From Parcubacteria group bacterium (GTDB lineage Bacteria > Patescibacteriota > Minisyncoccia > UBA6257 > UBA11618): 35,554 bases of DNA. This document shows positions 2,819 through 23,094 of this stretch, piece after piece. The notes under the pieces were generated by a model that saw only the letters and a list, made by a program, of their open reading frames with translations, searched no databases and was not told the DNA's origin. Position 1 is the first letter of the stretch; the number at the start of each line of letters is the position of its first letter. The stretch is taken from positions 1 through 35,554 of the forward strand of contig CALRGO010000005.1 of the NCBI GenBank assembly GCA_943357895.1, given 5' to 3'. Both the position numbers and the translations under genes were made by a program.

Positions 2819-2848
2819 AAATAAAGATTTTCTAGTTGTCCCAACAAA
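2819..2848 (-). promoter_or_regulatory. 3' arm of the pre-16S processing stem
   Basis: The minus strand here reads GGGACAACTAGAAAAT and onward, and pairs with 5833-5862 in the 16S leader over about 30 bp with two mismatches. Such stems enclose bacterial 16S precursors and are cut by RNase III. Its position shows that the mature 3' end lies between 2848 and the last exon at 2959. Confidence 0.75.
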
Positions 2849-2993
2849 GTCGTGACTTTAGGCTCCACGACCAAAACCTTGTATCTCCCAACAACCCGTG
2901 AAGGTGTGTTGGCTTTAATTAAGTAATCCACGAGCAGCTTCCGCTACCCGTGCCTTGTTCATGCTTAACCCGCATGTCGCCATGCGGCATGGA

Positions 2994-3629
2994 CTATATC
3001 TTCATCCTGTCTTTCAGAATTTGCGCTTTTATGGGATGAAACGACCCGATGCAACTGGCAAATAGTTTCTGGCTTCGTGCCGAGATAAATATCCGCCAAT
3101 AATCAGGATCAACTCGTTTACTTGGATTATGGATCTTACCAGAGGTAATACCCATAGCTTCCAATATTTCTTTAAGTGCGGCGATTTTCTGATAATTCTT
3201 CTGCACGAGCTGGATATAAAATCTATCCGCCGTGCGTGGAACACCGCCTTCTGCGTCAAAAAATCCCCGCACATATGCAGATTGCGCCTGCTGGCTTTTC
3301 AAAGAAAGCGGATCATGCTTGAAATCCAGTTTTGGACATAATGTTTCCAAAACATGCAAATCACGCATTTTTCCCTCCTTGTAAATCCAAGAATTCGAGC
3401 CGATGTTTTTTAAGAGCACCTGCAAGGTCTTGAGCCAACGGACATCTTTCTGCACGAAACGAATTCTTCTCCCTTTATTTAACGAAGCATCATGCAACGC
3501 TCCGTTCAAATACGCTATTATTTCTTCTTCAGACATAGGAGCTTGGCGTATAGTCTCTGAGGACTCTCTTTCAATAACGCATTGAAAGGTTGCCTGCTGA
3601 TTTTCTGCACCGAACGCATTTTCACACAT
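2994..3629 (-). CDS. LAGLIDADG homing endonuclease encoded in the 16S group I intron
   Basis: A 211-aa monomeric endonuclease that should cut intron-less 16S alleles and drive intron spread. Motif 2 is clear at residues 119-130 (YVRGFFDAEGGV, Asp125 and Glu127); motif 1 is a divergent copy at 40-49 (YLNGALHDAS, Asp47). Both acidic metal ligands are kept, so it may be active. The stop codon TAG lies inside the AAGATATAGTCC ribozyme core, so coding and catalytic RNA sequence overlap. A TGATATAAT extended -10 (3636-3644) ends 6 nt before the ATG, suggesting leaderless expression from within the intron. Met32 is an alternative start; some family members also act as maturases. Confidence 0.9.
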   Translation of the reverse strand: MCENAFGAENQQATFQCVIERESSETIRQAPMSEEEIIAYLNGALHDASLNKGRRIRFVQKDVRWLKTLQVLLKNIGSNSWIYKEGKMRDLHVLETLCPKLDFKHDPLSLKSQQAQSAYVRGFFDAEGGVPRTADRFYIQLVQKNYQKIAALKEILEAMGITSGKIHNPSKRVDPDYWRIFISARSQKLFASCIGSFHPIKAQILKDRMKI

Positions 3630-3635
3630 GTATCT

Positions 3636-3644
3636 ATTATATCA
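3636..3644 (-). promoter_or_regulatory. Extended -10 promoter inside the intron, 6 nt before the endonuclease ATG
   Basis: TGATATAAT on the minus strand contains a consensus TATAAT with the TGn extension. It would give a leaderless mRNA independent of rRNA transcription. It could also be part of the intron fold, so expression is inference. Confidence 0.45.
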
Positions 3645-3821
3645 TGCGTAGCGTCGGATACTCAGGAGTTCCAGCATATAGCCAAGTTTTTAATGCTGCA
3701 TTACTGCAACTAGTCGCAACTTATGCAGATTGCATCAACGACTTCGTCCGTGTCACCGATTCTACCCTGATTCGGCGAGGCCGAACTTCAGATATCCCCG
3801 GCTCCCCTGACGTGACGGGCG

Positions 3822-4349
3822 AGAGTCCTCCGTAAACTCGGAGTTGACATCCCCACGTAGCGAGCGGATTTCCCGCACTACGCGAGCTCAAACTTTTTTA
3901 ATTTCGTATGAGAGAATCCTTCCCCAGCACCACTTTTACTCATGGTGTTTATATATATGACATTGTTTTTCAAAAAAACTATGTTTTCTATACACAAACA
4001 TTTTTAGTAAAAGTGGTGCTGGGTACTATGATCCAGCTGACTTCTTACGCCGCGTAAGTTCAATTATATCATATCACGGATATGATAACGGCATAAGATC
4101 TCATCGGGTTAGTACGTATTCTCTTCCTAACATCCCGAGCGAACCTTTTTAAAATATCTTCCCCATCCTCACCGCCTATTTCCTTGATGGGTCGATATGG
4201 TTCTTTTTTTGCTCGGGCTATTATTCGCCTCCGGATCCTCCGCCATGTCCCTCGCGGACCATGACTATCCTTCGACTACGCTCTTTTGACGGACAAAAGA
4301 GGTATGGATTTTAACCATATAGATTACGTACCTGCCGATCGCGGTTTTT
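3822..4349 (-). other. First 16S intron (C1399|C1400), class uncertain: group II-like features, alternative group I reading
   Basis: About 528 nt separate CCTGTACTCAC from CGCCCGTC; removing 3822-4349 restores the universal decoding-site sequence exactly. Near the 3' end 3852-3886 folds like group II domain V: lower helix with a CGC triad whose G forms a G.U pair, a U.G pair, a 2-nt bulge, a short upper helix and a GAAA-containing loop. A domain VI-like hairpin (CTCCG/CGGAG) with an A 8 nt from the end follows. A hairpin loop holds GTGAG (4168-4172), complementary to exon end CTCAC, like EBS1-IBS1. Against group II: no GUGYG start and no AY end. Alternative: splicing after CCTGT (4356) with guide GCAGG (4331-4335) and final G 3827 fits group I, but leaves the exon one base short. 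No convincing ORF. Confidence 0.7.
3923..4023 (-). repeat. 101-bp foldback within the first 16S intron
   Basis: Perfect 18-nt inverted arms (3923-3940 and 4006-4023, CCCAGCACCACTTTTACT on one side) enclose an A+T-rich core that can itself pair (TGTTTGTGTATA with TATATATAAACA, then GTTTTT/AAAAAC). It may be the domain IV-type stem of the intron or an inserted MITE-like element. No protein is encoded. Confidence 0.7.
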
Positions 4350-4694
4350 GTGAGTACAGGACTCGAGAACGTATTCACCGTGGTATAGCTGACCCACGAT
4401 TACTAGCGATTCCAGCTTCATGAGGGCGAGTTGCAGCCCTCAATCCGAACTGAGACCAGTTTTGGGGATTAGCTCCGCCTTACGGCTTGGCAACCCATTG
4501 TACTGGCCATTGTAACACGTGTGTAGCCCAAGGCATCAAAGGGCCATGCTGATTTGACGTCGTCCCCACCTTCCTCCCAGCACACAACGCACCTTATATA
4601 TAAGATGCGCTCTGTGCTGGGCAGTTTCCTGCGACACTTGTAACGCAGAATGGGGGTTGCGCTCGTTTCCCCACTGAAGGGAACGTCTCACGAT

Positions 4695-4725
<31 letters not shown>

Positions 4726-5832
4726 CACTTGTCCCTTGAGAGGACTGCCAGTCTTTCGATAGGCATTCAAGTACATGTCTAGCCTTGGTAAGGTTCTTCG
4801 TTTACCGTCGAATTAAACCACATGTTCCACCGCTTGTGCGAGTCCCCGTCTATTCCTTTGAGTTTTAATCTTGCGATCGTACTTCCCAGGCGGCTGATTT
4901 AACGCGTTAGCTACGCCACTCCGAGGGTCGATACTCGAAACAGCTAATCAGCATCGTTTAGGGCGTGGACTACAAGGGTATCTAATCCTTTTTGATCCCC
5001 ACGCTTTCGCGATTGAGCGTCAGGGATGCCCCAGCTACCTGCCTTCGCCTTCGGTGTTCCCCACAATATCAACGGATTTCACCCCTACACTGTGAGTTCC
5101 AGTAGCCTCTAGCACCCTCTAGTCACGCAGTATTTCACGCTAGTCCGAGGTTGAGCCTCGGTATTTGACATGAAACTTACGCGACCGCCTACTCGCTCTT
5201 TACGCCCAATAAATCCGGATAACGCTCGGGGCCCTCGTATTACCGCGGCTGCTGGCACGAGGTTAGCAACCCCTTATTCCATGGGTACCATCATTTGTTT
5301 TTTCCCCATGAAAAGCAGTTTACAGACCAAGGTCCTTCATCCTGCACGCGGCGTCGCTCGATCAGGCTTGCGCCCATTGTCGAATATTCTCGACTGCTGC
5401 CACCCGTAGGTGTACGAGCCGTGTCTCAGTCTCGTCGTTGGAGAATGGCCTCTCAGCCCTCCTATCCGTCATAGCCTTGGTGAGCAGTTACCTCACCAAC
5501 TAGCTGATAGAGTCTAGGCCGTTCCCGAAGCCCCTTGCGGGTTTACTCTTGCGAGACCATCTGGAATTACCCCGTCTTTCGACGAGCTGTGCCAGACTTC
5601 GGGGTACGTACCAAGATATTACTAACTCGTTCGCCGCTAAACTATGTAATCCGCAACCTTTGATGTAATCTCAGCTACTTCAAACATAGTCCCGCTCGAC
5701 TTGCATGCCTTATCCACGCCGCCAGCGTTCATCCTGGACCAGGATCAAATCCTCTGTGTAAAGCTTCCGGCTCATGGCTTTCAGTTTTTAAATTGCTTCA
5801 AACACTCAATGCCGGTCGCCAAAAGCTATTCG

Positions 5833-5862
5833 TTTATTGGGACAACTAGAAAATTCTTATTT
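5833..5862 (-). promoter_or_regulatory. 5' arm of the pre-16S processing stem
   Basis: Complementary to 2819-2848 over about 30 bp with two mismatches. It lies about 73 nt upstream of the mature 16S 5' end, as expected for an RNase III-type processing stem. Confidence 0.75.
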
Positions 5863-23023: not shown

Positions 23024-23094
23024 CGGGGTGTAGTATATGGGTAGTACGCAAAGCTGGGGGTTTTGCAAACCGGGTTCAAGCCCCGGCACCCCGA
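23024..23094 (+). tRNA. tRNA-Pro (anticodon GGG)
   Basis: A full cloverleaf: acceptor CGGGGTG/CACCCCG, D-arm GTAT-ATGGGTA-GTAC, anticodon stem CAAAG/TTTTG with loop CTGGGGG (anticodon GGG at 23056-23058), 4-nt variable loop, T-arm CCGGG-TTCAAGC-CCCGG, discriminator A. The C1-G72 acceptor pair is typical of bacterial tRNA-Pro. CCA is not encoded (ACCGC follows), so a CCA-adding enzyme is needed. Confidence 0.93.

Follow-up and report, generated by a model that had tools for sequence, protein, structure and literature searches.

Architecture of the 16S rRNA gene

The window, i.e. the whole stretch of 35,554 nucleotides analysed here (positions 1-35554), carries on its minus strand a 16S rRNA gene that is split into three exons by two introns (Table 1). 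The exons were delimited by comparison with the intronless relatives L013, L017 and L019 and with E. coli, and the same three relatives served to place the junction at the end of exon 1. Intron 1 is without a match to any Rfam intron family; it holds an inverted repeat (window 3923-4024, minus strand) with perfect 18-bp arms (CCCAGCACCACTTTTACT) and an A/T-rich loop, which occurs as a single copy in the genome. Intron 2 scores 55.7 bits against RF00028 (gathering score 50), which identifies it as a group I intron, and contains a homing endonuclease gene. The insertion follows 5'-GAAGTCGT, and since this site matches the continuous GAAGTCGTAACAAGG of the intronless relatives, the boundary of exon 3 is certain. 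Exon 3 reads AACAAGGCACGGGTAGCGGAAGCTGCTCGTGGATTACTTAATTAAAG on the minus strand, from window position 2959 down to 2913.

Table 1. Features of the 16S rRNA locus, in window coordinates.
Feature	Position	Strand	Description
Pre-16S processing stem, 5' arm	5833..5862	-	Duplex with 2819-2848
16S exon 1	4350..5760	-	RF00177, 1283.6 bits; 5' end to approximately E. coli position 1399, ends ...GTCCTGTACTCAC
Intron 1, 528 nt	3822..4349	-	After approximately E. coli position 1399
16S exon 2, 84 nt	3738..3821	-	CGCCCGTCACG...GACGAAGTCGT; aligned to L013/L017
Intron 2, 778 nt, group I	2960..3737	-	RF00028; after approximately E. coli U1498
Homing endonuclease gene, LAGLIDADG_3	2994..3629	-	Within intron 2; PF14528, E=1.1e-15
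16S exon 3	2913..2959	-	End of helix 44, helix 45, tail GATTACTTAATTAAAG without anti-SD
Replacement tail	2913..2928	-	GATTA + CTTAATTAAAG; expected GATCA + CCTCCTTA
Pre-16S processing stem, 3' arm	2819..2848	-	Duplex with 5833-5862

The pre-16S processing stem that had been proposed from inspection of the sequence is real: its duplex is computed at -34.1 kcal/mol, compared to -5.7 +/- 2.3 kcal/mol in shuffles. The Rfam 16S model places its own end at 4303, being stretched into intron 1 (window 4303-4349) to reach full model length. Automatic annotation would therefore misplace the 16S 3' end and overlook both downstream exons. Neither 23S, 5S nor tRNA-Ile/Ala genes were found near the 16S gene in the window, where tRNA-Pro at 23024 is the only tRNA; the rRNA genes thus lie outside a classical operon here.

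Loss of the anti-Shine-Dalgarno sequence

The 16S 3' end of the window genome is GGATTACTTAATTAAAG. Helix 45 is intact, and exon 3 displays CTTAATT at the site of CCTCCTT, which confirms the loss of the anti-Shine-Dalgarno (anti-SD) element claimed in the earlier note. No CCTCC is found within 100 nt after helix 45 in this genome. A search of the 528 kb assembly (9 contigs, 93.6% complete) returned a single 16S gene, the second copy that might have overturned the claim being absent, and no other match to TCACCTCC lies downstream of a helix 45. The loss hence affects every 16S copy in the assembly, at a completeness that leaves some room for a second gene.

Alignment with related 16S sequences points the same way. 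A sister species of the same genus (L017/L178), separately assembled, carries the same tail GATCACTTAATTAAAA, its 16S ending GATCACTTAATTAAAATT. CCTCC is absent in all 30 relatives from the order for which the 16S was fetched (100 nt were read in 29 of them, and 13 nt past helix 45 in L030, where the contig ends), and the intronless relatives have the same kind of tail. Among these 30 members, conservation covers tail columns 1-5 (GATCA) and several positions between columns 6 and 15, with T at column 7 in 28 and at column 8 in all of them. Past approximately column 15 after helix 45, conservation drops to background. This limit suggests a mature 16S 3' end some 13-15 nt after helix 45, predicted as ...GAUUACUUAAUUAAA, which is where the 16S ends in E. 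coli and B. subtilis (PMC6107228). If no further intron is present, the mature rRNA would end UUAAUUAAA. The tail is then probably about as long as usual, its CCUCC having been overwritten with A/U-rich sequence (GAU(U/C)A-CUUAAUUAAA) and not deleted.

Distribution over the class and the phylum

A 16S-end pattern was run over 286 genomes of the class, and 148 tails were typed from that list; a genome escapes this pattern if an intron or a divergent end lies close to helix 45, as is the case for the one in the window. The 148 genomes map to 66 families, and their tails comprise 76 without the anti-SD, 61 with an intact CCTCC and 11 that are one base off, mostly TCTCC. At the family level, 43 display only lost, 16 only intact and 4 only one-base-off tails, while 3 are mixed. 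One mixed family (f33) counts 10 intact members and 1 lost. The exception, L039 (G254), has the tail GGATCATTTTTTT, possibly a recent independent loss, and the ten other sampled members keep CCTCC. The families f30, f79 and f46, together with G300 (f88), have tails TCATCTCC or ACATCTCC, which share a C-to-U change at the first base of CCUCC. This change may mark the onset of decay, or the variant may be stable.

Outside the class, tails in the phylum are almost all CCTCCTT, and the phylum core displays only two clear variants (CTTCC in G332, TCTCC in G515). Hence the loss is derived and concentrated in the class, which by inference is Paceibacteria; within it, loss is common and probably occurred repeatedly. 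The earlier note had called such a loss rare. That holds for bacteria overall, with 128 of 20,648 taxa affected (PMC6107228), and fails within the organism's own class, where the data support a clade-wide and widespread loss instead of a rare individual event.

Signals at translation starts

Start sites were taken from the organism's own genome, rebuilt from pieces, and from 40-120 kb of each of 21 genomes of the class. Genes and starts were called by a simple codon-usage caller written for this analysis, which ignores ribosome-binding sites. In the own genome, GGAGGN4-8ATG occurs 49 times compared to 55 times for the reversed pattern (ratio 0.89), so that the lack of GGAGG noted earlier for most core genes is borne out genome-wide. 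SD 4-mers at -18..-4 precede 9.0% of starts vs 6.4% in the control, compared to 65% vs 2% in E. coli; for 5-base SD motifs a weak excess remains (2.9% vs 0.7%). The genome thereby resembles anti-SD-less, SD-scarce bacteria, in which no SD motif is enriched before genes. The SD signal is near background in the 21 sampled class genomes as well, nine of which have an intact anti-SD. Across the class, the median ratio of GGAGGN4-8ATG to the reversed control is lower in genomes that lost the anti-SD than in intact ones (1.98 against 2.60; P=0.0008 before any phylogenetic correction).

On the other hand, start codons are preceded by a promoter-like signal. The average upstream profile of all genes displays T-12, A-11 and T-7, a register that fits a -10 box for transcripts beginning with the A of ATG. 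In the own genome, TAnnnT placed so that the first T falls at -12 occurs 21 times vs 4.4 expected before first genes, and 23 times vs 3.8 before internal ones. In several separate genome sets, TATAAT-like boxes at -14..-11 are enriched over dinucleotide shuffles (z = 4.8-7.6). At one-mismatch stringency the signature is found in only about 15% of genes. The position of these boxes, about 10-12 nt before start codons, is that known from organisms with many leaderless genes, and their enrichment around -12 suggests many leaderless mRNAs. Judged from this register, leaderless initiation is probably in use; its role as the main route is the weaker part of the proposal.

Initiation and tail-binding proteins

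Era binds GAUCACCUCC (PMC10582724). In the own genome Era scores below the cut-off, in keeping with Paceibacteria being reported to lack it for the most part (PMC12641178). IF3 is present. No bS21 was detectable in the own genome, and since the bS21 profile is weak across the class, a possible link of bS21 to anti-SD status was dropped. S1-domain proteins occur in 283 of 286 class genomes, including open reading frames of bS1 size (approximately 360-440 aa).

The own assembly returned no S1 domain, PNPase or uS15. Relatives of the same genus have S1 domains in reading frames of bS1 and PNPase size a few kb apart, and in the relative G004, bS1, uS15 and PNPase stand together in one 5-kb block. 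A loss of bS1 from the own genome was rejected as an assumption on the grounds of these relatives; more likely, the assembly has a gap or one block is missing, with relocation or a real loss also possible. On contig C1 of the own assembly (G000; approximately 23-26 kb, beyond the window), the genes that neighbour the bS1-uS15-PNPase block lie inside the contig, and not at its end.

Proposed explanation and alternatives

Taken as a whole, we consider it very probable that the anti-SD was truly lost and overwritten by an A/U-rich tail, that the whole order has this change in common, as one instance of a loss that is widespread in a single class of Patescibacteria and probably occurred more than once, and that starts are selected independently of SD motifs. 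A ribosome without the anti-SD cannot choose start codons by the usual pairing of rRNA and mRNA. Starts are instead most likely chosen in two ways: on leaderless or near-leaderless mRNAs, where a -10 box approximately 12 nt before the start codon would set the first transcribed base to the A of AUG or close to it, and in other genes by a weakly structured, A/U-rich context. The use of SD motifs was probably abandoned first, because members of the class with an intact anti-SD are also without an SD signal and share the promoter-at-start signature; SD-independent initiation hence appears common to the class, these members included. The anti-SD would then have decayed repeatedly under relaxed selection. 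A further-reaching version, in which the order and most of the class left the SD/anti-SD system stepwise, the tail GAUCA-WUUAAW is functional, leaderless initiation is the main route and the intact members represent the stage before decay, is put forward tentatively, and we hold it to be somewhat doubtful in its entirety.

Of comparable standing is the idea that most mRNAs are leadered, A/U-rich and unstructured, and initiate with bS1, with leaderless mRNAs as a minority. The near-universal S1-domain proteins of the class, the small share of genes whose start carries a strict -10 box and the A-rich upstream profile speak for it, but the T-12, A-11, T-7 register is seen in the average of all genes, and the -10 box enrichment is strong in separate genome sets. 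We regard this as a serious option that nevertheless falls short of being probable.

A new pairing partner for the tail is improbable by comparison. The conserved tail, with its nearly invariant UU at columns 7-8, could act as a variant anti-SD for an A/U-rich motif before genes. However, the own tail pairs no more strongly with positions -21..-1 than with an upstream control, and it behaves like shuffled tails in this respect (difference 0.12 vs 0.08 +/- 0.20 kcal/mol), and TAATT-type words are enriched in anti-SD-intact genomes too. The complementary upstream regions that define an alternative anti-SD/SD pair were not found, and this candidate was rejected.

A further unseen intron between GGATTA and a true downstream CCUCC exon had been judged unlikely in the earlier note, and is even more so now. 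Such an intron is conceivable in a gene that already holds two, and a CACCTTC lies approximately 20 nt past exon 3. Yet the sister species shares the tail but has no CACCTTC, intronless relatives carry the same kind of tail, neither the own genome nor its relatives have CCTCC within 100 nt or anything conserved downstream, and only about 64 nt separate exon 3 from the processing stem; we give this reading hardly any weight. Least credible of all is an assembly error, chimera or pseudogene, which a draft in 9 contigs with a single 16S copy might invite, but which is opposed by the separately assembled sister, the order-wide tails, the intact decoding-site sequence and helix 45, and the strong processing stem. 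That the sister and all 30 order relatives share the loss in practice excludes an error of assembly, an overlooked third intron or a pseudogene, and the loss is genuine and common to the order.

Few bacterial sequences are as conserved as the anti-SD. A class with intact, one-base-off and lost families therefore offers a natural series on what maintains it, in which the order of SD and anti-SD loss and the choice of start codons without an anti-SD can be tested. It also cautions that gene finders relying on SD motifs, and 16S annotation as well, can go wrong in this class. The 16S 3' ends in the phylum are "often not fully annotated" (PMC12641178), which anti-SD loss would partly explain.

Comparison with known systems

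Leaderless genes of Actinobacteria and Deinococcus-Thermus reportedly display a TA-rich, -10-like signal approximately 10 nt before the start codon. Both groups retain the anti-SD, and many of their other genes rely on SD motifs.

Loss of the anti-SD is a recognised class of event in bacteria (PMC6107228, 2018; class iv of PMC10783764, 2024; Lim et al., 2012, as cited in PMC6107228). The present case agrees with anti-SD-lacking bacteria in that helix 45 is kept, CCUCC is absent from the 13-nt tail and genes are without a preceding SD.

In Flavobacteria and Bacteroidetes, mRNAs are likewise without SD motifs, and the anti-SD is kept in some lineages and lost in others: it is sequestered where kept, and lost in Chryseobacterium and relatives. 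Unlike the organisms studied here, however, these bacteria have Kozak-like positions (PMC6847099) and ribosomal proteins that sequester the anti-SD; the present genes have a promoter -10 box at their start codon, and the own genome yielded no detectable bS21. Mammalian mitochondria also have a small subunit rRNA without an anti-SD (PMC10582724) and translate leaderless mRNAs (PMC7797035), but are organelles, whereas the present 16S is cellular.

The closest precedents are single genomes of Campbellbacteria and Wolfebacteria, likewise Parcubacteria-type organisms without the anti-SD, reported together with a single Peregrinibacteria genome and two Absconditabacteria (PMC10783764). A literature search that covered few subscription papers returned none joining the anti-SD or leaderless initiation with Parcubacteria. 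Loss of the anti-SD as a type of event, the Campbellbacteria and Wolfebacteria genomes included, was thus already known. Earlier surveys held few genomes of the phylum, whereas the loss is seen here order-wide and in more than half of the class families sampled, with one-base-off intermediates, a mixed family and an intact remainder of the phylum. New are the clade-wide extent of the loss, its intermediates, the conserved replacement tail and the leaderless signature.
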